64,000 nt of DNA from Asterella californica (taxonomy: Eukaryota; Streptophyta; Marchantiopsida; Marchantiales; Aytoniaceae). Positions 15,452 through 57,429 of the stretch are shown one piece after another. The translations under genes and the position numbers were made by a program. The stretch is taken from assembly GCA_036924285.1 (NCBI GenBank), contig JAYKYS010000016.1, forward strand, positions 4,402,001-4,466,000, read 5' to 3'. The first letter of the stretch is position 1, and every line of letters starts with the position of its first letter. The notes beneath the pieces are model-generated. The model worked only from the letters and a program-made list of their open reading frames with translations, was not told the origin of the DNA and did not search any database.

Positions 15452-17421
15452 TCAGTCCGTTAGAGCCAGAGACGCAAGCTTCTCAACAGTAAGGAAACAG
15501 TAAGTCGCGTTTGGCGGGGAGCTGAAGGTTGTAGTAGAAGGGTCGAGACCCGAGAAGATTTGTCTGGCGATGATATAATTGGCCAAATGTGAAGGATGAT
15601 ATTCATCCCACCAGACGTGTGTAGTTGGCTGTGCACACACTTGCAGGGGGCTCGCGCAATGAAACGCGCCTCCATAGCGTCCTGCTCCGCAGCATGCCTT
15701 GTTTCCATTCAAGAAGCCTGCCATAGATATTCCAGACTCGATCAGATACCTGAAACCGAGGAACTTGGATGTGTCTGTTTTCTGAAGCAAGGCCAGGAAG
15801 CTTCGAAATCAAACGGCATAGATGCGTCTACTTTTGGTCTGAAATGTACGTGATGGAATGGAAGGTACCTACCATATTCGCCAGGGAACTTGCACAAGCG
15901 GTAGACGACTTTCATGATATCTCGGTACTCGAAATGAGCTCCTCGGTTCTGCTGATTGAAGAGTACGAGCATCGCCCTGAGCGCATCGTTGTACTGGGAG
16001 ACGTACTGATTCACCGTTTCGATACAGTGGGCCGTAATGGTTCCGGACAGCCAGAGAAAGTGAGGCGCACATCCGACAGGCCCCACGCCGAGCACTGCGG
16101 CCTTTCTCGCCCCCGCATCGTACAGCACCTGCACAGCCACCATCGATCCATCGACCGGCAACCAGTGCAGTTGTGAGAACCTTAAACGGCAATGAGGATA
16201 TAAAACAGTATGGAGGCATAATTTCCAGAGTCTAACCTTCAGCTGATCCCCTACGGTCGTAACAAGTAGGCTAGTAAAATTCTCGCGGGGGAGGAATGTC
16301 CCATCAGTGTCGTTGATGATCCAGCTGTGAATGAAGTCGTTTCCGCCCGTTCCCAAATAAAACAGTGAATTCCTCAGATGCAGAAGAGTAGCCTCTTCTC
16401 CCAGTTTTGCAACCAGATGGTTCCGCTTCTCCAAGAAAAGCTCTACCTGCTGCCAACCCGAAATGATTTCTCCCTGCAGCGCATTCATGATCAAACACAT
16501 ATTAGCAGCATTATACTACTCGATGACGAGGAAAGGATATTTATTAGCTGCCTACAACTCAAAAACTGATCACTACACATTGAAGTTGTAACCACTAACA
16601 GTGCTGGCAGGAACATATTCATGATCAGGAAACGTCATTCATCAACTCTGATTCCGAAAGGGATGTTTCGTTATCGACAGTACCAGCACTCTCCCAGTTC
16701 TGTTCATAATTCCAGCCCCAGCCGAAGCGAAGTTGGCCCCTTGACAGCTATAGGTCTGCGCTTCGGGGCTCAAATATGGCGGCGCCACTGGCATGCCCAA
16801 AAACTCCGCTGGATAGCAATGAGACGTGAGTGAGTAACGATAAACTTAGCCAACAGTATATTCAACGGAAAGGTGACAGTATAACCTTCGAATCTTACGG
16901 TCGCATGCACAGCTCTGAGTCAGACCAGTTATGCAAACACTACCGTAGCTACTAAGTCCGCACATGGTGAGAAGCAGGGGCAGTACAAGCAGTTGGTAAT
17001 GTTGTAAGTTTCCACAGATCGAAAGGACCCCACTGAAAGGCAATTTGCTGCTCGATCAAATGCATCAGTTTCTGCTCGGGTTCCTACGTCTGTGTTACTA
17101 GCTGCTCCGCGCAGTCACTGAACAACGGAAGAGCTTACCAATCCAATCGGACGTCATCCTTCCATTGGTGAACCTCCCCGTCGCAAGGCGGGTGTCGAAG
17201 TCTCGGCCATAAGGTGGATAATTGGAACGAGAAATCGTGGCCAGTCGATTGTTGTTTCCACCGTCAAGAGTTGAATCTCCAAAAACATACAACGCGGGAG
17301 CTCTGCAGTTTGCTCCTTGTGGTGAGACCTGCTCATCAATCCCTTGAATTCCCCAAGCCCATGGAACACGAGTCATAACAATGATTGTGACTAATGCCCA
17401 TAGTTGACACAGCCTGCCCAT
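15452..17421 (-). CDS. GDSL esterase/lipase (SGNH hydrolase), intact, 5 exons
   Basis: Exons: 17421-17139, 16808-16684, 16473-16237, 16128-15873 and 15717-15452, giving 388 residues. The first four exons have exactly the lengths of those in the first GDSL gene (283, 125, 237, 256), which confirms both models. Residues 1-27 are a likely signal peptide. Key residues: FGDSTLDGGNNN with Ser at about 50, [31 protein letters not shown], and WWDEYHPSH with Asp338 and His341. The start was chosen by alignment of MGRLCQL with both paralogues; the open frame extends further upstream to an alternative Met, but those residues are not shared. A secreted ester hydrolase of unknown substrate. It is oriented head to head with the broken third copy. 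Confidence 0.92.
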
Positions 17422-24337: not shown

Positions 24338-26199
24338 TTAGATGACAAGAGCATCGTAGTGCTTCCTCGTCTTCTTGGCGAAGCAGATCGGAAGGTAATC
24401 TTTGAACGTGTAGTTACGGTACTTTGCTGGATTCTCCGCGCTCAGCAATTCAGGCGCTGGCCCCATTTGAGACATAGAGTTAGGGTTTGCGAATGTGACG
24501 AGGGATAGACGGGTCTGAGATGAGTTCACAACAGCCTGATGCTCCACGCTGCAGTACTTGGCATTGCTGAGGATCTACAACCACCACAAATGTTCGCAGT
24601 CGAAGTTGGCTTAGATTTTGCGGCGCAAATTCGAGAACAACAAAGCAAATTCAGTCTATACTTTCGAACTCATTCCTTTCGCCGTAAGCGTTACTGGTAA
24701 GCGTTACTGAACAGTAATCAACATGGTCAAGTCATGGACGGAACCGAAATCATGCAGTTTAGGTAAGACGAGTACTTGGATCTGATCTCCCAGATTGATG
24801 ACCAAGGCGCCAGGGATGGGCTCCACGGTGACCCATTTGTTTCCGTCCTCCTTGTAAGCCTGCAGCCCGCCGACTTCATCCTGCTGTAGAACCGTAATCG
24901 TACCGTAATCAGTGTGACTGCGAAGACCCAAGGTCAGGTCGGGCTGTGGGCACTGCGGGTAGTAGTTGAATAGGATTTTCTGCTCGGCGTCTTCACCCCC
25001 GACGGCATTCTTGATGTAATTCGTTTGGAGCCCGAGACTATCCGAAATGACACCCAACAGTGAAGTCACTAGTGTGTCGATGGTATCACTATACTCGGCG
25101 AGTGTTTTCCTGGGCACCCAACACCAAACGTCAAACTATGACGTGTCTCTGCCACGAGCCTGCAACTGCCAATCTACTAGTGATAGATCCGCCGCATGCC
25201 TCAACAGAGGAAACTTCACTGACGTCAGAGACTCGAATTACTAACGAATCCGAACAGGAGTAGCATGGGCGCGAGGCACACTTTTGAGTTCCCAAAGACA
25301 ATCTACACAGAGGTCACTGAGTCAAGTTAAAGCTGAACACTACAACAGACATATTCGGAGGTACTCTATTCCATGCCAGGAACGAGCTCGAGCTACTGGC
25401 TGACCATCAGCTGGATGATCTTAGCCAGTGCCGGGCATAAGTCGGGATGAAGAATTGCATCCAGCTCCGACTAGGCCTCGCTGCTTTCAGCTAGTTAATT
25501 AACAACAGAATGTAATTTTTCGACAGAGTCTAACGAGAAGGGCAAGAGAAGAACACTATAAGGCATCTGCTGGCAGTACTCTGTCTACCAACTGGACTCC
25601 TTCACCTAATTAATTCTCACATTCGCATTGCCGACCGGTACCATGACTGACTTGCGATACTGGGCGGCGGAGAGATTTGCTTACTTGTACTCCTGAGGCT
25701 TCTCAGGCCAGATGCTGACATCGGTCTCGCGAACAGCCGTGGGCAAGCACCGGTGCACCATGAGTTCTCTCCAGTCAAGAATGTCATCATCAGCTCGGTG
25801 GCTCCCACTCGCGTATCCGACCGGGAAGCCTCCAGGCTTAGTCGCGTACTTCAACTTCTCTTCCAAGGGAAGCTTGAAGAATTGCAAAGTGCTGTCCATC
25901 ATTCTCTTCAACAGCTCCGCAGAAACACCATGGTCGACAACTTGAAAGATTCCCCATTCAGCGCATGCACGGCCAACTTCACCGACAATTCTTCCGCGCT
26001 CGCTCTCGGAATCGATCCCCTTCAGGCTAATGACAGGAATCTCCTTACAGAAGTCGTTGTGAGCTACGTTAGGACGCTCGCCCTCGGCCTTGACGAATTT
26101 CTCAGGCAAATCTGTCGCGTCCATAGCCAACTTCATCACGCTCACTGGGACAACGCGTTCCGTTCCAGGAGAAACTTCCACGGCCGCTGGGGGAGCCAT
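24338..26199 (-). CDS. 2-oxoglutarate/Fe(II) dioxygenase, flavone synthase I / flavanone 3-hydroxylase-like
   Basis: Three exons, 26199-25685, 25109-24776 and 24574-24338, joined by GT-AG introns of 575 and 201 bases in agreeing phase, give 361 residues, the normal size for the plant DOXC class. The N-terminal half has ERPNVAHNDFCKEIPVISL and WGIFQVVDHGVSAEL; the C-terminal jelly roll has NYYPQCPQPDLTLGL, then HTD (iron ligands His237 and Asp239), His295 in EHQAVVNSS, and RLS at 305-307 that binds 2-oxoglutarate. The phrase pattern is closest to flavanone 3-hydroxylase and bryophyte flavone synthase I, which convert flavanones to dihydroflavonols or flavones; which of these cannot be decided here. 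Cytosolic, no signal peptide. It could instead be a related DMR6-like oxidase. Confidence 0.9.
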
Positions 26200-27813
26200 C
26201 TTTCGTTTCTCGAGCCGAGTTCAAAAGGTGATAACAGGCCTCAAGAATTGTCCTCCTGTACTCGGGAACTTGGGCCCCGTCCCAGCTTTAGTCTCGCTTG
26301 GCTTTCGAAGACGGGCCTCGTTGAAGGAAACCAGCCAACCGTCACTGCGGAATGTGACGGCCTGTAGTGGTATATATTGCGGAGTTTGCCACGAACGCAC
26401 GTAGCGTGGAGACTCACGGCTTTACACCATGAGCGTTTGAATTTTGAACGATACTAATCTGGCCACGCCTACGACGAGAGCGACTGCGTCAGGTGCGACG
26501 ACTCCAGACAATAGCCATCAGATGCAGCATCGACGGCGGAACCTACAGGTTTCTTGCTGTGCGACGACCGCAGTTCAGCCGCGAATCCTGTATCCGTAAC
26601 TTGGTCATGCCGGAAGTACAAGAGAATGCATTCTTCGGGATTAGGCGTCCGGATTCGCGCACCAACAACCACTAGACTTCTTTTCTTGCGTGTTCCATGC
26701 AGTTCCCCCGGCTCATGATTGACTTGCGTGTTGCTGTTGTTGGTAACTTGGTACCATGAGCCCTGGCGAGTCAATACTTGCTGCCATCACCCGGACCCAT
26801 GCTGCCAAGGTCAATAACGCTGTCATTTGTGTTTTTATGACCGGCACTTTCACCGTGTCGACCTGATCTCACCCTCCGTGTGGAAATAACAGGTAGATTA
26901 TTCAACCTTCCCTTCCGGTGACGGTATGTTGTGCTGGTGTCAGGTGCCACGCGGTTCCTTCATCATGCATTTGTATTTGTATGATAGTCCGCCTGAGAGC
27001 CTTTTTGTGTCAGTATTTTCCCGACTTTGTCTGAAGTTTCCAGGACTGAGTGACAAATATAACTACGAACTATAGGGAAAAAATTTAAACATAGTAACCT
27101 TAGCATATTCAAATTCAAGTTTTCCATAGATTAAAAAGAATATGCATGCTCGATGCATTTCTGGCCCATACTAGAAAGAAGAGAAATGATAATATAGTGA
27201 CAATCATTTTCACACATGGTTGACAGACACATATAATTGAAAGATAATGAAATAAATATTTTTCATGAGAATCGATTTACACGATGCGCTACAGCAAAAA
27301 TTGCACAAGAGGAAGCAAATGCATTGAATGTTAAAATATAATGTACTAAATTTAAATAATTATATTTTATGTTCTAACTTCAGTAAGTTATAAATGGAAA
27401 AAGTTACATTATAGTTGACTTACAAAGGCCAAAACAGTTATACAAAGTCTAGCCCGTATGTGTTTATAGGTCACACATTCTTGTCACACTTGGGCATCTA
27501 TGATCATAAACTTGTATGTGAAAAGTGTGATAGGCTCACCCTTTCATAGTATAAACAATCGTAGTCGAATAAACAATTATATCTATATTAATTCATTATC
27601 TTTCAATGGAGAGGGTGAATATGCATGCTTGATGGAGTGAAGTCACCATCTTTCACTAATACGTGATTATACTTGGAAACTTTGTTCAAGAAATAAAAGG
27701 TTTTCACGTTCTTGGCCCATTCTACTTTTCATGAACTTGTAGTTCCCTACAAGTATGATAGTATAATCATGGGCTTTTGATAGCTTAAAATATATTCATC
27801 AAATTTTATGTCC

Positions 27814-33300: not shown

Positions 33301-35178
33301 GGACTTCATGGAAATATCCTATATATTCTACCTCCCGAGATGCATATGAACCATGTGATTCTGCTATTGATCGCTTTCTGATGAAGAGAAGTTTCTGATC
33401 AACGAGTGAGTGATCTCAGCAGAACACTGGTACCGACTCGACAAACAAGTAGAACATGATGTCCCACACATAACTATACGTATCCTTCTTGACCATGGCA
33501 TCACATCGGTACGAGATGAAAGTTTCTCTCACAGAAGAAGAGTGACTTGGATAATCAGCCGCAGAGTGGAAGTAGTGGCAGTGACATCGTGCAAATTAAG
33601 TCATGACATTTACATGAAGTCGTCTACACAAGAAGCTCAGGAGGCCTGATAAGCCTTTGGAAACTCCTTGGCCCAATAGACATTCACGTGAAGTCTACTA
33701 TTACATGCGACACTGTCTCCTTCCTTAATAAAGCTTAGTACTGGGCTTGAGAAAAAAAGACTTAAGAATAAAACTTCGGTATGAACAAACCCGCTTGCTA
33801 TAGAGACCTTGGCTTCTTCAAAGATCCCTCCATCAGTGGATTTTCTTCCATTGAACTTCAAAATACTCATATGCTCCCACATACCGCTCCATTCAGTACT
33901 CCAACGCCAAATTTTGCTACAGTGCATAGCGAAAGCACAAGTTCTTAGATTTGAATTTACATTATTTGCATCAAAAAGCACACTGCATACAACAACTGTT
34001 AAACTGTTGGCTCCCATACATGATGAATAGTGACTTTCGTTTCCATGGTGACAGCTTGTTTATATTCTCGATCTCTACGAAAATTAACGGAAGAATGCAT
34101 GTTCTCCCATGTAGACAAAACAATATCCTACGCAGCAAAAGTTGCCATTTTATCAAAAAAAAGTTGTTCTGACTCAACTTACATTGATTGATTTGAGTGC
34201 TACATGATTTGAGCTATTCATCTTTCATTAGATGGCTAATTCTACACTAGGTTCGAGATTAATATCCATTGATGGTTTGCTGTGGTTCGTACCTGCTTTT
34301 CTGCATTCGCTCTCTCTCACTATTTATAAACCCTGCAGTAACCTAAGTTTGAGATCACTAGTCATGATTACCCATAGTACTTTCAAGAAGGCCACAAATA
34401 GCTGCCATTGCAAAGGTAGTAATTGTACTGCCAAGGGTTTTTTACTGCTTCGTGAGAGGCGCAAGACAACAGTGTGAACTGCCCGTCCACTATGAACCAA
34501 TCTATTAACAAGTACATGTCCCTCCTCATCCACATGCCCATCAGTCTACCTGCAGAACAACGAAATATGCGATCAACTGATAACAGTGACTTCACCCTTT
34601 CTAAATTGATTGCCTGTTTGTACCCACTGCATTAATCTTCTTCCGATTCCTGTTCTTAAATATCATGTTCTTGATCGATAAGAAGCGGTACGAAGGGATT
34701 CTTTTCGGGACAGTCGGAGCACGTAGATACGCTCACACGCACTTCTGTCTCTTTTCGTACAGTCTCGAGGTCTGTGGTCGAAAGTCTTGGACATGCAATT
34801 GCTAATGAGTACAATCTCCCTCGCGTCTCTGTTTCGAATTCGACTTCCGTTGCGTATTCCTTGCATCTACTGGACCTTATCTTGCCTACGATGGAGGGAC
34901 TGGGCGAATAGCACATGATGTATGTAGAGTTGGCTACTTGTTCTGTTGTGAGTCAAAGCCTCCAAAACAGGCAAAGGCTGTGAACAGCTAGTTTATATTT
35001 CGATTGTATAGAGACATTTGCCCTTCTGTCGTGGCTGCTGAAGTGCTACTAAAGTTGCAACAATAGCCAATCACCTTCTCTGACGGATGAATTGGACTGT
35101 CACTACTCCGTCGCTGGTACCCACTGCTCGCTGCGGAGCAACAGTTTGAATTCCTTCTCACTACTTTCGGTGGACTTA
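33301..35178. other. intergenic and 3' flank of the ATPase gene
   Basis: A minus-strand frame of 126 codons (33637-34017) and several at 34232-34916 show no domain I recognise. They could be exons of an unrecognised gene, but nothing supports this. The last few hundred bases before 35179 are probably the 3' untranslated region of the ATPase. Positions 35001-35090 recur inside ATPase intron 7 at 40101-40190. Confidence 0.4.
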
Positions 35179-38100
35179 CTACGCTGTCTTCTCGCAATAG
35201 GGATGCACTGCAACACTTTCGTAACCGTCTGGAACTGGGAAGGTGAGGGATTCCTGCCTTCTTTCTTGGGGGTTAACAGACTCGTGTCGTCGGGTTGGTA
35301 CTTCTGAGCCGCATTTTCTGGCGGAATCTGGTCCTGGGCAGCACTTTCCAATGCTTGGAGTAGTTTGTGTATCGCTATAAAGCTTTTTATCAACGGAGCA
35401 TTTCGTAGCTGCGACTGCTCCTGTGCAGCATTTTCTGGCGGCCCCCAATTTTGAATCTGACATACCTTTGCTCCCTGAGACACATTCTGCAGTACTTCTG
35501 GCCGAATCTGGTCCTGGGCAACACTTTCCAATGCTTGGAATAGCTTGTGTATCGCTATAAAGCTTTTTATCAACGGAGCATTTCGTAGCTGCGACTGCTC
35601 CTGTGCAGCATTTTCTGACCGCACACAATTTTGAATCTGACATACCTTTGCTCCCTGAGACACATTCTGCAGTACACATACTGATTTGCTGGGTACCGGT
35701 TTCTTGCCCGCATGCGTTCTTTCGCACTGCTTTAGATGATGTGCAACATTTCTTGCTAGAACAAGATTTCTCTTTCTTTTCACGGGTATGTTGTCGACGG
35801 GCCCAGCAAGGAACTTTTGCACCGTGATGGTGATGACCATGGTGACCTCTGCCATGTTCTTCATGGTGATGATTGTCGGAATACCCTGTGTGATTATGGT
35901 CATGAGCATCGCCGTCTTTCTTGCCAGGTTCGTGGTGATGACCGTGGTGATCATCCTGCTCGTTTGCCTGATGGTGATGCTGACGAAGAAGGTCATCCTC
36001 GCTATTGCCCACCTCGTAGTGATGATGGTCGTGGCCGTGATTACGAAGCTGTTGCTTCGCTTTCGCCTCGAATTTGGGCAAAACCACACCTCTCTTCCTG
36101 TTAAGAAGCCGCATGCTGTTCAACATTACCACCAGGCAAGTCCCAACATCTGCAAGTACTGCGGCCCAGAGAGAAGGATATCCTGCAGCGGCTAGTATAA
36201 TGATTGTGATTTTGGTTAAGAAGGATAGAGATATATTCTGTACGATTTTCCATCTGCAGTTCTTTCCCAGCTCTATTGCCACAACAAGCTTCCGAAGATC
36301 ATTTGTCATCAGCGCTACATCGGCTGTTTCCATAGCAACAGCTGAGCCCGCCACTCCCATTGCAAGGCCAATATCTGCCACTGCCAAAGCTGGTGCATCA
36401 TTTATACCATCCCCTACCATAGCAGTTACACCACCAGTTTTGAGTTCCTTGACCAGATTCACCTTATCCTCGGGTAAGAGCTGAGAGTGAACATCTATGT
36501 CACCAAGCTGTATGAACAACACATTTCTCATCAGTGGGGAAGTTTGGTGTTCGAAGCCAACCAGCACTGAATGAAGCATAGCATGAAACAGACAATGAAC
36601 GGAATCGAAGGGCAATTCAACCACCTTGTTATGCACAGCTGCAGCAGCGGAATCACTATCACCTGTCAGCATTACAACCTGTACACCCATTTTCTGCAAA
36701 ACCAAACTGAGTATGTTAGGGGACAAGCGACAGCAACTGGAGTGTAAAGTTCATATTGCAAAGCTGTGTTGGAATCTATCTCTACCTTCAGCCTGGTAAC
36801 AGCCTCCACTGCTTCAGGTCGAAGAGAGTCAGCCACTCCGAAGATACCTAGTGGTTTCTCGTTGACCACGACCCATCCAACAGTGGCACCCTGGCTACTC
36901 CATTGCTCCACACTAGCAGTAGATTGAATATCTGCAAACCAGGTAAGGTTTCTTAACTTTCTGGCCTGAAATGGTTGCTAAGCAGTTTGTAGGATGGAAA
37001 TTGCTGACAACCGTAAGATATAAGTACTAAGACCAGATAATCACCTTGGAAACCACTGGATTGTGAAGCCAGACGGGCGTTTCCTATCTTCACCTGCTGA
37101 CCATCAACTATCGCGGATACTCCCTCTCCTGGGATTATTGCAAAATCTGTCACATCCCCTGTCGGTTCTACTCCAAAGAGCCGAGCGTAGCCAACGAGAG
37201 CGGGTGCGAGGGGATGGCTCGATTTGTTCTCAACGCATGCAATCCTGGAAATGCCACCAACTGAGAAACTTATTTACCTTCTGGAACACTGGACTTCTCT
37301 ATGCTGGCAGTCATGCCGGAGCAGATTAGTCACGTCAAGGACTGCCTATCGCAAAATAGGCAGCTCCGTCGATATAAAAAGAGGCAATGTTTTTGTTAGG
37401 TTCAAGGTCCGATGCAAGAGGTACTTCTACACCTTGAGCGTCCATGATCAAGATAAAGCGGACAAGCTCAAGCAATCCTTACCCCTTGCTTTGACTGTCC
37501 ACGATCGGAGAGGGAAAAACATTCCTAGGTATCGGATTAGTTGCTTTTCTAGACCCGGAGTCGGTAGGAGTGGTAACGGCTTATCACAGAATATTCAGCA
37601 CACTCTGGGACTGAAGTACTCGGACAGCATGGCAGACTCCAGAGCTCGTCGCCGTACCGCAAAATGTTCAGGTCCAGTAACTGGTCTGAGTTACTGGACC
37701 TGAAGTTATTTTTGATTACATCTTTGAACTTGGCATCTGTGCTCTCTGTGTTGTTACTCGGTGCCGTAATTCAGCAGGGAAGTATAGGAACGATTCTCCC
37801 CTACTCTATCATGGCCAAAAGTTAGTGAATTTGATTGTGGAAGACATTCAGCTTCCCACTAATTACAACGAATCAAAGGAAGTATCCGGTTCTCCGGTTC
37901 GGCTGTTTAAGTAGCAATTTAAAAGAACCTAATATTATGGTAGTAGGAAGTCGATGCGAGATAGTAAGAGCAAGCGACCATCAGCCAAAAGCTAAGTTAT
38001 TGCAACAGGTTTCAGTTTTTAGGACGACTTCTCTGCGGAGCTATACAACACAAAGCTATGAAAAGACCAATAAGTATAAAGAATAATTATCCTTTTTCCT

Positions 38101-50439: not shown

Positions 50440-51466
50440 TGAAAACCCGCTACCTAAAAAACATGGTGCAGAAAGAAAGAGAAAGTGGTATCCCGTGGCG
50501 CCTCTCTTGATAAGCTCTGGTACAATCTCTCAGAAAGACGTCGAACTCCAAGCCTGTCGATCCGTATATCTCCAAAGCTAAGGGGATGAAGCGATGTCTC
50601 ACTTGCATACTCTTATACTTGGTCACCTTCGCTGCTGCCGCCACGCCTGCAGCTCATCCTGGGAGATGGGTTATCACCTGTGTCGTCACTGAGTCTCATG
50701 TCGGATCCGTGACAACCACATCAGCCACTGAGATCTGATCCTCCTTCATCATGTACAAGTCAGCTCTCAATGATCCTCCTGTCTGAAGGACATACCAACA
50801 CTCTCTCCACGTGCTAAGACAAACACGATGTCTCTGATGACATCGTGGGTAGCTATCCGCTGACCGCTCTCTCGTGCTAAGGTAAACACGAAGTCTCTGA
50901 TGGCATCATGGGTAGCTATCCGCTCTCCATCATGAGGACATCGAGCAAGATGACGATCCGATGTGTCGAGCGAGACATCGTACTCGCAAGTGGATAGTGC
51001 TGAAGCAACAGGCTGGACCAAGCTTAGACGGAACCTCATCGCTGTAGGGAAAATAGTCGATGCGAGTCGGTACGCTCTAATGCAAGGTCGAGCTATGAGC
51101 CAAGAGCCTGCGCCCTTGTCCGAACAAGAGCGGAGTCGAGCTCTAGTATCCCGAGAGATGGAAGCATCCACTAAGAGCGCATGGAGAACCTGCTGGAAGT
51201 GGTGTCCCGTCAGAGAAGACTGTAGTCCGTGAGATCCATCGGTAGCTAAGATATCGAATCGAGGGTGTGCCTCACGTGCCTCAAGAGTCAAACTATCTCT
51301 TGTCTCATGGAGACACGTCTGTAGTGGGTAAGAACCATCCTCCACTTCTGTCACATAGCTCTCCAGAATAGATCTATCTCGCACGAGAAAATGACAACAG
51401 AGCCAAGGTGCTGAGAGGGCCCAACTACTCAAAAAGACTGCCGCAGCAGTCTCCTCCATGAATAAT
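50440..51466 (-). pseudogene. LINE-like reverse transcriptase element, C-terminal part
   Basis: On the minus strand 51459-50767 reads as the end of a non-LTR RT polyprotein: a helical segment (ALSAPWLCCHFLVRD), SDKGAGSWL, then the Cys/His segment ending RCPHDGERIATHDAIRD. Further on, ADVVVTD (about 50725-50705) and AAAAKVTKYKS with HRFIPLALEIYGSTG (about 50640-50550) resemble the restriction-like endonuclease tail of such elements, with stops in between. A 63-base tandem duplication repeats the RIATHD(A/V)IRD block (about 50813-50932). The N-terminal part lies at 57430-57760, across the GAAGAC-rich segment. Confidence 0.65.
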
Positions 51467-53394
51467 AACTTGTTTGTATAACTGAAGAAGCGTTGTTACT
51501 TAAGGTTACGTCTCCCTTAGCAGGAAGATGATCTTAAGAGTTGTTTGTAATAAGAAGTTGACTTCTTCGGAAGACGACCGTCTTCGGAAGAGCGTCTTCT
51601 CAGTTGCGTCTTCAGAAGACGAGAAGACGGCGGAAGATGAGAACACGGCGGAAGACACCTGTCTTCCAGAAGACATCGACCGCGAAGGCCCAACCATGAG
51701 TTTTCGGGTAAGACAGTAGGTGTACCTACTGAGGCGCACCGAATAGGTAGGTAGGTCGAGGAAGACACCTAAGGTCAAAAACCCCTAATCTGCGGGGAAG
51801 AGACGTAAGGAAGTGCATTAGGCACATTCCAACTTCCCGCAGCACAGCGCTTGAGAAGATCGATTGGAGATAGTGAGCTTCGCGAGTTAGCTTTGAGAGA
51901 GGAATCGAGTGAGGACATCGAGGTAGGAGAGAATCAGTTGGCAGCTAGGCGAAGGGCGAGACTGAATTGATGGAGCACCAACGGCAGAGAGCGAAGGCGT
52001 TTCTGTGAGCTCCCGAGAAGCTGACATTGAAGAGTAGCGAGTAGAATCGAAGGTGGGATCGAGGCGTGACCAAGAGATTGACAGCAGGCGCAGTCGTGAG
52101 GAGTCGCATTGGAGCTAGGACCAGAGCCAAGAAGCGCGCGGAGGTCGAAGGCAACTCGGGGAGCAGAAGAAGACTGTAGAGGTTCTTTCCCTTGTTCTTT
52201 CCCCTTCCCACTTCTTCTCGTCTTTTCCTGGTATTCCCCGCGCTTCCTTGGTTGTGTGCAGGCAGCCTGATCGATTATCCTACCCCCCATTCTTTCTATT
52301 GAGACATTGGGCGCGGAAGCGCTGCCCAATTTCTGTCAGACATCTCTTTACTTCTTCCCGAGCTCAATTCGAGCTTCCCAACTCCTAGCCCTCAAATTGG
52401 AGATCCCAGCTATCAATTTCCCTACCCTACTACCTCTCTACCCCCGAAACTTGGAATAGAAGACGATTCGGAAGATGGGAACATCTTCGGAAGACGCTTC
52501 TTAAACTTGACTGTCTTCGGAAGACCGTCTTCGGAAGACCGTCTTCGGAAGTCGACTGAACACAATTCGTATCAAGAGTGGATTTGCTTTGCTTTTGTGT
52601 TTAGAGAGACTTGGTACGAATCCTGAGTGGTGTGGTTTATTTTGTTATTTCGAGAAGTTGGAAGTCGGGAACTAGGCCTGTGCCTCCCGGTCTTCCAAGC
52701 TTCTCAACTCCCCATCTTCCTAGAGAGACTAGAAGACTGGAAGGCTGGCAAAATGAGCGAGAAGACGTGAGGATCCATTCGGGTCTCTTCTGTCCGATCC
52801 ATAGCAGCCGTTCCTTCTTCTTCCCGAACTTAGAAGAGAGTCGTGAGAATACTTGCTGGCAGAATCTGGAGAGAATGGTCGAGGGTCATGTCTTCCCAGT
52901 GAGCAGCAAGCTTCTCCTGAGTGCATATGAGAGGTGAGAAGTCAGAAGAACAGAGTGCAATTGTCTTGAGTCTGTTGTGAGGATAGATTACGTGTAAGAA
53001 GACGAAGACATGTGAGACTAGTGAAGGGAAGTCTGACTTCGGGAAGTCTTCCGAGAAAGACATTGAATCGGAAGCTGTCCCGAGTGTCTTCCCAGAGACC
53101 GCTGTCACCGCAGGAGCCCGCAACCATCTTCTGAACTTGTCATGCACTATTGTTTTGCGAATCTTGTATCTTCTGATAGGAAGTAGGATGTAATGCAAGG
53201 TGGGTTGTCTTCTTGGTAATCCATGCGAGGTCTTGCTTAGATAGGATTGTTTAGATATAGCTCGAAAGACGAGAGCTATCTAGGAAGTACTGTTAGAATC
53301 CCGGAAGACGGAGTAGTTGTCTTCTGGAAGACTAGTTTCGTCTTCTGAGAAGTAGAAGCTAGACTGTGGGCACTCGGGAAGAACTGAGCCTTCA

Positions 53395-55737
53395 GCTCAT
53401 AGTAGGTGCTTGTGGTTTAGTGCAACAGATCTTCCAGGTATGTCGATGCATCCGCGAGACTTGGTGTTACCAGCGGCAGAATTGGCCGAGGCCACTCTTT
53501 TCCTCAAGGAGTTGGGTCTCGACTTCTTCCTGTGGGATTGGAACCTCGCAGATCAAGGGCTTCTGGAGGAGGTGTGGGCAGCGTTGTCGCCTCGTAACCG
53601 TGTACCTGCGAAAGCAGGAGTAGCTCGAGGAAGACCGTCTTCCTGGACTGAAGATTGGTGACGCAAGGCTTTTCACAGGCCTGAGTCCGAGAACCGAGGA
53701 TATTGGTACGAGAAGAAGATCTTGCCTAGGATCGTGAGTTCGTGGCATGTGCCTGGGAGCACCACCTGCCTTTTCGTGGAAGACAGGCAGGGGAGGAACG
53801 GTTGGAAGATCGAATCTTACCGGGAGCCGAAGAAGCGACTTCTGGCGAAGTTGTTTCTGCATCTCTTGCCCAAGGGGAAAGCGCAAAAGACAAGGTACTT
53901 AGGAGATCAGGACGTGGAGTTCCTAGAATCAGTGTGGGATGACGAGTGCCCATCTACTGGGGCGCGTACATCCACAACTATGTACAGACGGAGCTAGCAT
54001 ACTTGGGTACCCCGGAGAGAGGACACTTGACGGCCTTCCTCTCCTACTTGTATGTAGCCATGGGGGATCTTAGGGAAGATCAGCTGGCAGGGTATGGGCC
54101 AACGGAGCGACAGGAGATGAAGGAAGAGACCTCGAAAGATGATGACCGAGCGGCAGCCGCAACGTCCCTTCCCACTCTGATGCCACAGCTGAGGCCCGGC
54201 TCTCACAGAAGACGTTTCTGGTGAGGAAAGACGAGTCTAGTGGGTCGGAAGACGCCACGCCACTGAGGAAGATGGGTCCCAGAAGTGTACCGAGGACACC
54301 CATCTCCCTCATTCATTCAGGATCAGAGTCCGACTCGGAAGAAGACCTGCTGAGTACCCGATCAGAGCAGAAGACTGCTTCTGTAACGCCTGGGAGTCTT
54401 TCGAAGACTCCAGAAGACGAAGGATGGATAGGCGCTCCTGCTGCGATACGAGGAAGCGCAAAGAAGAGAGCCGCTCTTACCATGAGGAGTCTTCCACCCC
54501 GGAAGATGAGAAGAGTAGCTTCTTCTCGTGCGCAGAAGATGAAAGCCGTAGTGGTAGAAGAGGCTTCCTTGTCTCTGGAAGACGAAGTCGACACCGCGGA
54601 GCGAGTGGTGGAGATGAACTTGTCTTCCGCAGGAAGACGACTGGAGGAGTTCAGTCCCTACTTCCAGAAGGAGATCCAACCAGCTATGGAGTTGCTGGAG
54701 AAGAGAGCGAGGGCACAGGAGAAGTCCTTACAACCTGGATTCAGCCTGCGCACCTTGCTGCGACAGGGAGAAGACCAGAAGAAGACGGAGTCGCTGGAAG
54801 CTAGTCTCCGCACCACGGAGAAGCTTGCAGCCAGGTACAAGGCGGAAGCAGCCACTTTTGCGAAGGAGCTGGTGCAGCTTCGGAAGAGCAACCAGGAGTT
54901 GCAGGCGCGGGTACAGCAGCGCAATCAGGAAGTCACCCGAGTGCGGGAGAAGATCACCGCCCTCGTAGAAGAGCAAACCATATGGAAGACGCAGCGAGAA
55001 GCCGCGGAAGCGCGAGCTGCAGTTGAGAAGACGCAGCGGGAAGCAGCAGAGGCCCGTGCACAGAAGATGTTGGCACAGTCGGTGGAAGCGCTTCGGAAGA
55101 AGTTCAACTACACCGCGGGTAGGAAGTTACTTACCTTAGCCAGAGGATGGGACAGCGAGTCCAAAGCGATGTTGATGGAATGCCGGGAGAGCATGTTCAA
55201 GTACTTGGATAGACAGATAGAAGGAGTGAAGACACTTTATGGTCTTCCCTCGCTTCCGACACCTGCAACCGCATCTTCCCACGCTCCAGCACCATCGACT
55301 GGATCCGGAATGGAGAAGGAGGAGTTCGACCTCGCTGTGCACTTGGTGGTGACAGCGTTGGAAGCCGAGAAGACTCCAGAAGACGCCCCGGAAGACAGGA
55401 AGACGAGCCGTCTTCTCAGGTATTTCGCGTGGAGGAAGCGACTTCCCCGGATCCCCATGAGGTCCCCATGGTCCCTAGTCCCGCACCCGTGCCTCAGAAG
55501 ACGGAAGAAGCACCGGTCGACTCCGCTTCTCAGAAGACGCTTCTGTCTTCCGAAGCAGAAGCCGAAGCCGAGGAAGACGTAGCAGCAGCGACAGCAGGGC
55601 CAGCAAGAGACGATGAAGAGGAAGCCACCTCAGTGACACCCGAGGTAACTGCAGGGCTTTCTAGCTTATCAAAAGCCGCGTTAGGAGCTCCGATAGGAGC
55701 AGATCAGATAGAGATTGCCTCCGTGCAATCTGAGTAG
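53395..55737 (+). pseudogene. frameshifted ORF of the GAAGAC-rich segment, coiled-coil protein
   Basis: Frames join into one protein of about 780 codons with breaks: one frame from 53395 (HPRDLVLPAAELAEATLF) has TGA after TEDW at 53659-53661 and then resumes to WDDEC; the next frame carries YWGAYIHNYVQTELAYLG and LTAFLSYLYVAMGDL; a third (from about 54190 to 55420) is acidic and then a long coiled coil (about 54620-55110, with EKTQREAAEARA-type repeats); the last (to 55737) is a Pro/Glu-rich tail ending EIASVQSE. No family was recognised. The layout (globular N-terminal part, coiled coil, acidic tail) would suit a gag-like or DNA-binding accessory protein of a mobile element. Confidence 0.6.
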
Positions 55738-56020
55738 TTAGTAACTCCATTAACAATTCCAAATATAGTAAGATTGAACATGCTATCTTAAGGGTGGCAG
55801 TTTTTCCATGTAATATTAGTTAGGACACCATGTGGCAGCATAGGTAGCGTAGGAAAGACAAGGCAGATGACCAATTCGGGCAGGGGAACCGCTTGCATGT
55901 GAGGTGACAACCTCCTGTCAGCGCCTCTCTCTCCCTGGTGGTCGCCTCCCCTGGTTCTCATGGCGGCAACATAAGTAGGATCGTAGAGTAGGAAATTGGA
56001 CCTGTGTGGAGAATTGAGTT

Positions 56021-56138
56021 CTGCACACACATTCTAATCGTACGGTGCAGACAGATTAGACACACAGGGGAGTCTTCGAAGAAACTGGCTGCCTGCACAC
56101 ACATACCAATCTTACGGTGCAGGAGACAGATTAGACAC
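56021..56138. repeat. two-copy repeat with CTGCAC/GTGCAG dyads
   Basis: Units at 56021-56062 and 56093-56138 share CTGCACACACAT, a variable centre, ACGGTGCAG and ACAGATTAGACAC. Each begins and ends its first 30 bases with complementary hexamers, so each can form a small hairpin. Confidence 0.8.
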
Positions 56139-57429
56139 TAGAGGTACACAGTGTACACTACACTCGATGTTGGAATAAGGAGATAACGCATGAAGAAGTC
56201 TGCATTCTCTTACCACCAGCAGCGATTCGGAGATGTAGATGAGTAGTGGGCAGTCTAGGAGCAGGAAACGGCATCCTCGTGCAGTCCTGCTGGTTAGATT
56301 GATGTGTCGAGGAGTAGACGCAGGAAGTAGAGGGAGTGAGCTTCCCAATGCCATTGTGACTTCTTCTCGGGGAATAGATTGTGGATTTGAGTGCAGAAGC
56401 TTCGTTCATGTCTTCTGGATGGTGGGTTCCTTGAATTCGCTCCCAATTGTGCATGGGAAGTGTTCTTCTTGAGTGGCGGTGACTGTCAGCTGTTGTGGAA
56501 GTGTAGCTTGACTCGTTCAGTAGAGCACTTGGGATCTACGTACGAACGGTCTTCTGGATAAGGGATCCCAGAAGACAGAGCAGTCAGAGCAGCGAAGTGA
56601 AGAAGAAAGAAGCCTTCTTCCCGCAACAGAAGACGACATCCTCGAGTAGAAGACGGTGCAACAGTACTCACGTTTGTTGTCTTCCTCCCCAAACTATTAC
56701 AAGCAGGGATGGCTTGTTAGTCAGGATCCGGACTAGAAGCCTATCGGAATCTTAATTTACTATTTTCATCTTGTTTTCTCTTGTTTGGACTTTCTCTTCT
56801 TCCCCATCTTCCCTCATCTTCCCCATCCTCTTACCTTCTTCTAGTGAGCTTCCGAGACTTCTATTGAGCTTCCGTGAAGGTGAATGTCGTTGTAGTGTTG
56901 CAGGAAGACCATTTCCGTAGGCAGAAGCCTGGGAAGGCTACAGGGGGCATACACCCTGTGATTAATCTAACCCGTTGGAATGTGAGTGTGAGAATAAGGT
57001 GTAACGACCGTTGCTAGTCGACTTCTGCGAAGCAGGACAATCTTCTGGAGGTGTGAGAAGACGAGCTGAACCCCCAGAAGACGAGAATCGCTTCGGGAAG
57101 ACGGTATCGAGAAGACCGGAAGAAGCAATCTAGAAGCAGGAAGATCGTCTTCTCGAGCTTCTCTGTGAATAGTTGTGTGATATTGTAATTGGTAGTTGTT
57201 TGTTTAGTTCCAGAGCACCATTTGACGTGTCTGGAAGACGTGTAGTTTTGTGTGGTTTTGTGAGAAGACGAGATTTTTGAGCAAAACTCGTGTGTTTGTG
57301 TGTTTGAACAGATCCTAGAACTTAGAGCAGCGATTACTTACGTAAATCCTCTGTGGGAACGATATCTTGTATACTAAATGGGCAAAAGGAGTAATCCTGC
57401 GTCACTACAACTCACAACCTCCCGATGTC

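Follow-up and report, generated by a model that had tools for sequence, protein, structure and literature searches.

A solo LTR filled with GAAGAC

The 64,000-nt stretch of Asterella californica DNA analysed here (contig JAYKYS010000016.1; hereafter the window) carries, at 51460..57409 on the + strand, a 5′-truncated solo long terminal repeat (LTR) from a Ty3/gypsy-type retrotransposon whose LTRs are about 5.9 kb long. The assignment of the remaining 5,950 bp is based on the alignment of the family (92–96% identity) and on the ends and target-site duplications (TSDs) of other copies. An exact count of the hexamer GAAGAC and its complement GTCTTC gave 115 matches in the window, 74 of them within this segment (12.4 per kb) and 41 in the remaining 58,050 bases (0.71 per kb). 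An earlier note, made from the letters of the window alone, had counted about 70 copies in 5.7 kb and put them at some 25 times chance. The count was thus close and the excess is real, but the factor was somewhat high, being about 11-fold relative to composition and about 17-fold relative to the rest of the window. Sequences simulated by a first-order Markov model with the same dinucleotide content contained 6.7±2.5 motifs, with a maximum of 14 in 200 simulations. In DNA outside the family, 111 motifs were found in 130.8 kb (0.85 per kb; the loci overlap and some bases were counted twice), so the hexamer is not equally dense in unrelated DNA.

GAAGAC was the top-ranked hexamer of the segment, and all words with one mismatch were rarer, the commonest being GAAGAA (27), GAAGAT (23), GAAGTC (17) and GAAGAG (14). 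The enriched unit is GAAGAC plus a shoulder of GAAGAN words, the hexamer alone being too narrow a description. As the earlier note had stated, the motif is present in both orientations and in all frames, coding sequence included, with 18, 16 and 15 + matches per frame. Inverted pairs with 1-nt spacing (−+ or +− at distance 7), described there as frequent, do exist (3 + 3 in the segment), but four of the six fall in a single mini-array at 52513–52547, in which GTCTTC and GAAGAC alternate every 7 bp (a 14-bp dyad unit). This mini-array lies in the gapped and variable columns 248–309 of the alignment of LTR copies, its copy number varies between them, and it is the sole spot where tandem growth similar to that of VANDAL transposons may occur. 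Elsewhere the motifs were unevenly spaced, a period of 7 being just faintly apparent, nothing notable was seen when helical phasing was examined in the segment, and internal repeats were few and short. A simple tandem satellite, or a head-to-tail unit, was rejected on the grounds of the few short repeats and the irregular spacing, and the borders of an element are present.

On the right, other copies stop at the position matching 57409. On the left, the family match starts at 51460 (GAATAAT), 7 nt before the start at 51467 given earlier, and the LTR lacks 47 nt at its start, where 28 nt of unrelated sequence (51432..51459) now stand, as judged by comparison with copies starting TGTGGTGCCCACA. 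The intact 3′ terminus, CACTACA (57403..57409, + strand), is followed by ACTCA (57410..57414), the right copy of a candidate 5-bp TSD. The candidate left copy (ACTCA, 51427..51431) lies 28 nt outside the remaining LTR; a chance match is possible there, and the pair is plausibly the TSD of this insertion.

Other copies were collected and aligned for termini and duplications. They start with TGTGGTGCCCACAAATTACAG and end with GCGTCACTACA, with small variants: one start reads TATGG, and L009 ends in CACTATA, the one exception to CACTACA among the listed copies reaching that end. Both ends were kept in 12 of the 20 places examined. Four of these 12 (L002, L004, L005 and L014) continue directly after the LTR into a shared sequence with TGGCGCCGCTGCCGGGGA, which we take to be a primer binding site (PBS), probably of the tRNA-Asp type. 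In two others (L006 and L016) the LTR is preceded by GAGGGTGGGCGTA, on the side of the polypurine tract (PPT), and L012 and L020, with one end each, have the same PBS and PPT-side sequences. The six both-ended copies adjoining neither sequence (L003, L007, L009, L011, L015 and L017) are all flanked by perfect 5-bp TSDs. The sharp borders and duplications expected of a mobile element were therefore found; the kinship to DNA transposons suggested by the earlier note was not, as TG..CA ends, 5-bp TSDs, a PBS after the 5′ LTR, a PPT before the 3′ LTR and a gag-pol interior are those of a Ty3/gypsy-type LTR retrotransposon. About 200 bp of the window copy (55997–56197) could not be aligned with most other LTR copies, which have about 150–175 bp at this place; it is a fast-changing spot flanked by two well-conserved parts.

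The retrotransposon family and its coding sequences

A DNA search of the 516.7-Mb assembly yielded 46 matches from the 19 scored among 10,390 candidates. Fifteen places, including the window, cover the query unbroken from position 1 to about 4530 or beyond, the other 14 at 92–96% identity. A 51-nt sequence close to the start of the LTR was matched 2,921 times in the genome at up to 3 mismatches (1,437 + 1,484; reversed control 0), which at about 5.95 kb for each LTR would amount to up to 17 Mb (by hand arithmetic; many copies are partial). The junction of LTR and PBS occurs only 390 times (175 + 215, also with up to 3 mismatches), and therefore most LTRs look solo.

On two contigs, another LTR was found 6.5–6.7 kb downstream of an LTR end. 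The interior of this length encodes gag-pol, with Pfam matches in Ty3/gypsy order to Retrotrans_gag, zf-CCHC, RVT_1, RT_RNaseH, Integrase_H2C2 and rve; integrase follows reverse transcriptase (RT) and RNase H along both L038 and L032, and protease matched below the cut-off only. In the nine pieces searched there was no Pfam match to a second RNase H, a chromodomain or Athila ORF1, nor was a plant mobile domain or Transposase_28 matched in the pieces searched. One locus (L037–L039, C419:31930500–31960200) contains three LTRs in the same orientation: two that are separated by less than 200 bp (93.2% identity), then an interior and the third LTR; the pair around the interior is 92.9% identical.

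A second, related family (78% identity; 41 matches listed, which are 82–89% identical to the query when the place of the query itself is left aside) contains the motif at several times background density, below that of the main family: 14 per 1.61 kb in both copies read, compared to 18–27 in 14 copies of the main family. Its positions partly differ, the direction of change being unpolarised, and three motif positions common to both related copies are absent from all 14. Around C1:44844040–44849963 (L040/L041), the solo LTR L003 is inserted in the LTR of this related family in opposite orientation.

Contrary to the earlier note, the motif is not confined to the 6-kb segment, since the gag-pol interior is also rich in it. 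The LTR contains 51 GAAGAC and 23 GTCTTC (4.3 and 2.1 expected), a second LTR 51 and 24, and two interiors 43/14 and 35/16, where about 6/2 would be expected. Throughout the element the fold excess is alike in both orientations (11.8× and 11.1× in the LTR). Synonymous codons were shuffled 1,000 times in each of eight frames, which overlap in family position, with the protein and the codon usage kept. The observed numbers (19, 25, 8, 8, 22, 9, 17 and 11) were 2.5–3.5 fold above the respective means (7.5, 9.3, 2.5, 3.1, 6.3, 2.8, 5.9 and 3.7), and were never reached in seven frames and reached in 8 of 1,000 shuffles in the eighth. Ordinary codon preference was rejected by this test, in agreement with the earlier note, and the excess over the shuffles implies that point changes in the DNA itself introduced the word in numbers that the protein does not require. 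Base composition, codon preference or a simple satellite could draw on a purine-rich sequence, on coding rich in E, K and R and on the one short 14-bp array at 52513–52547, but neither the simulations nor the shuffles reproduce the count, and the irregular spacing with its slight period of 7 and the few short repeats leave this explanation practically no weight.

Within the LTR lies a decayed reading frame (53440..55737, + strand) of about 700 codons with, as judged by eye, an N-terminal domain, an acidic and serine-rich middle and a coiled coil. In the window copy, codon 74 is a stop (53659) and the frame shifts further downstream; stop-free copies exist elsewhere. Each of the 86 scored genome matches to the first 496 residues covers at least 495 of them at 93–100% identity, and 25 are stop-free, the place of the query itself included. 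Among 19 copies, the median ratio of nonsynonymous to synonymous substitution rates (dN/dS) was 0.30 (range 0.20–0.75 over 171 pairs, which are not independent), and 0.16 for codons 1–230. In the last 290 nt or so, two frames fit about equally by dN/dS and only one is stop-free. These comparisons of copies show that the frame has been under purifying selection, with constraint at the protein level. A profile search for relatives, suggested in the earlier note, gave for the first 496 residues no Pfam family even at E 10 and no PDB relative, and for the coiled-coil part only weak matches.

Substitutions within the motif, and other features of the window

An unpolarised comparison of copies, with losses at 0.39 of the expected number and "gains" 3.3-fold, was rejected as evidence. 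It is biased because conditioning on the motif in one copy cuts the length of the branch by half and turns losses and gains into reflections of each other. Polarised tests were used instead, in which a sister and an outgroup copy set the direction of each change. In these, 71 losses of all kinds were counted against 102.8 expected. C-to-T changes at CG and CHG positions inside motifs had the same rate as generally, whereas A/T positions of the motif changed at 0.0052, compared to 0.014–0.018 outside, and CHH cytosines at 0.0074, compared to 0.021–0.023.

As related copies share branches, counts of unique events with a strand-specific trinucleotide expectation were preferred. After de-duplication, polarised changes at motif positions other than CG/CHG numbered 28, with 53.4 expected from matched trinucleotides (P 1e-4). 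With local flanks as control, and repeated events not removed, the figures were 33 and 67.0. By region, the deficit was strongest in the 5′ non-coding third (9 vs 23.5) and not significant in the coding part (10 vs 16.6) or the 3′ third (9 vs 12.0). By orientation, it was found for sense GAAGAC (11 vs 31.7) and was not significant for GTCTTC (17 vs 21.7); sense GAAGAT (6 vs 14.7) and GAAGAA (3 vs 7.8) were conserved too. Conservation of the motif is therefore real yet moderate, with context-dependent mutation as a possible contributor.

Elsewhere in the window, positions 999–1072 match the Rfam family Intron_gpII (63 bits, E 5e-10), perhaps reflecting organellar DNA in a nuclear assembly. On the − strand, 35106–36750, 25684–26220 and 15745–16515 are open frames that presumably encode lookalikes of a heavy-metal ATPase, a flavanone-3-hydroxylase-like dioxygenase and a GDSL-type lipase, respectively. 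Such plant-like open frames indicate a land-plant genome.

Possible readers of the motif and related systems

The reading that we favour, at a probability of roughly 0.47, is that GAAGAC would be a recognition code, distributed over the element, for a protein that binds DNA and may be encoded by the LTR itself, as in the VANDAL/VANC system but in a retrotransposon. The word would be recognised on double-stranded DNA by a sequence-specific binder, which may be the LTR-encoded protein or a host factor. A word on double-stranded DNA is favoured by the similar excess on the two strands, by the lack of notable RNA folding and by the spread into gag-pol. Bound densely, the copies of the element would be marked as its own, and the most plausible effect is that they stay transcribable despite silencing; for a reader that occupies many sites as an oligomer, a coiled coil would be fitting. 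The word would have spread via point substitution, synonymous sites of gag-pol included, and selection on the active lineage would have maintained it. From dead copies it would now be lost mainly by C-to-T changes at CG and CHG positions. To name the LTR protein as the reader is a guess that draws solely on the existence of this protein, the constraint on its sequence and its coiled coil. We consider it doubtful that the element has a code of its own that spans LTR, gag and pol and is written on both strands, with an LTR-encoded coiled-coil reader that marks or de-silences its copies. The same doubt applies to such a self-code being a class I counterpart of VANDAL/VANC, of independent origin and built by point substitution instead of tandem duplication.

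Several observations weigh against the recognition code. Binding to GAAGAC is putative, as is the part of the LTR protein as its reader; no DNA-binding domain was recognised in this protein with Pfam and PDB, and its frame contains a stop in 61 of the 86 scored copies. A fourth-order model of the LTR predicts 63.7 motifs compared to the 74 observed, and thus the excess is already present in the sub-words GAAGA (138) and AAGAC (84), which weakened the claim for the exact hexamer and lowered our confidence. As AGAAGA (75 and 70) also outnumbers GAAGAC (57 and 51, both orientations) in the two interiors, the exact word is uncertain. The genome-wide counts of inverted pairs (9,966 vs 29 in the control; 3,868 vs 68 in a second count) mostly reflect copy number and provide no separate evidence for a dyad, which further lowered confidence. 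The weak conservation of GTCTTC would not be expected of a pure double-stranded DNA code. When CG/CHG positions are included, the deficit of changes is mild (62 vs 85.6), and polarised gains show no excess (6 vs 12.2 expected). Among 78 words, which behaved variably, GAAGAC has the seventh lowest rate ratio, though also the largest number of sites (repeated events not removed); since six words, with small counts, have a lower one, part of the deficit may be due to context-dependent mutation. Finally, no protection from methylation is visible in the copies compared, as CG/CHG decay within motifs is as fast as elsewhere.

The lack of excess gains would also fit the relic of a neutral or drive-like process, in which a past bias of mutation, recombination or gene conversion favoured GAAGAC and the present copies only decay; some bacterial genomes are saturated by uptake words. 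We regard this as unlikely, if the best of the alternatives. In the related family, the lower density (14 vs 18–27 per about 1.6 kb) is accompanied by several sites showing C-to-T or G-to-A decay of motifs still intact in the main family, and the unpolarised deficit of losses was largely an effect of ascertainment. However, motif positions other than CG/CHG change at half the expected rate, controls included, gag-pol and the LTR frame carry the motif beyond the needs of protein and codon usage, and pure decay would require a still denser ancestor, with about 16 motifs per kb by a rough hand estimate.

An improbable alternative is a function in RNA: packaging, splicing or export of the transcript would depend on sense GAAGAC as a binding site for Gag or for SR-type splicing factors of the host. 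GAAG-type motifs are known as splicing enhancers that bind such factors. GAAGAC outnumbers GTCTTC by 51 to 23 in the LTR, and the sense word, together with sense GAAGAT and GAAGAA, is the better conserved. Relative to composition, however, the excess is similar both ways, GTCTTC would have no role in such a model, and folding of the RNA is not marked, with mean z values of −0.79 (sense), −0.78 (antisense) and −0.45 (interior) compared to −0.39 and −0.13 in two background stretches. Still less probable are sites for a host transcription factor, in which the repeats would be enhancers for an activator with a GAAGAC-like site and the LTR protein would be unrelated. Repeated activator sites are common in LTRs, and conservation is strongest in the 5′ non-coding third, but enhancer sites would not be expected throughout the coding sequence of RT, RNase H and integrase.

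The DNA transposon En/Spm has multiple short sites for TNPA, a protein of its own, and these are subterminal only; there is no sign of kinship with the present element. The recognition code that we favour resembles VANDAL/VANC in its many copies of one short word, read by an element protein (shown there and supposed here), and in a short array of variable number. VANDALs are, however, DNA transposons of the Mutator type, and the LTR protein, which has no Pfam match, is set apart from VANC on the basis of that Pfam result. The VANC21 motif is of 9 nt, mainly non-coding, in the same orientation and often in tandem, coding probes were bound much more weakly, and VANC21 induces loss of methylation (PMC5735166, PMC10398659). 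In contrast, the word in the present element occurs in both orientations, includes gag-pol coding DNA and forms one short array.

Among retrotransposons, the element resembles plant Ty3/gypsy non-chromoviruses (the Ogre/Tat/Athila, or OTA, group) in its gag, zinc knuckle, RT and RNase H followed by integrase, its 5-bp TSD, its PBS and the lack of a chromodomain match in the pieces searched. It differs in LTRs of about 5.9 kb that enclose a constrained frame and in the motif that fills the whole element; its assignment to this group is tentative. One survey includes tRNA-Asp in the primers used by non-chromoviruses and describes extra open reading frames (ORFs) in most OTA elements (PMC6317226). 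Retrosat2, RIRE3 and RIRE8 of rice are likewise plant LTR retrotransposons whose long LTRs reach about 3 kb or more and which have an additional ORF0 of unclear function, although these LTRs are about half as long and ORF0 lies upstream of the gag-pol ORF; the passages on them describe no saturating hexamer (PMC3485330). Plant Ty3/gypsy elements with long LTRs and with additional ORFs have been described before (PMC6317226, PMC3485330). No hexamer-saturated LTR retrotransposon was found in the literature surveyed, in which the hexamer itself was not queried, and novelty in print is not claimed.

To our knowledge, the VANDAL group of DNA transposons is the one known source of sequence-specific anti-silencing. 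If the recognition code were true, this family would show that a mobile element of class I has independently come to recognise itself. Its thousands of natural copies, at varied stages of motif decay, would then allow motif dose to be related to methylation, and the code might also explain why the LTR has stayed 6 kb long.

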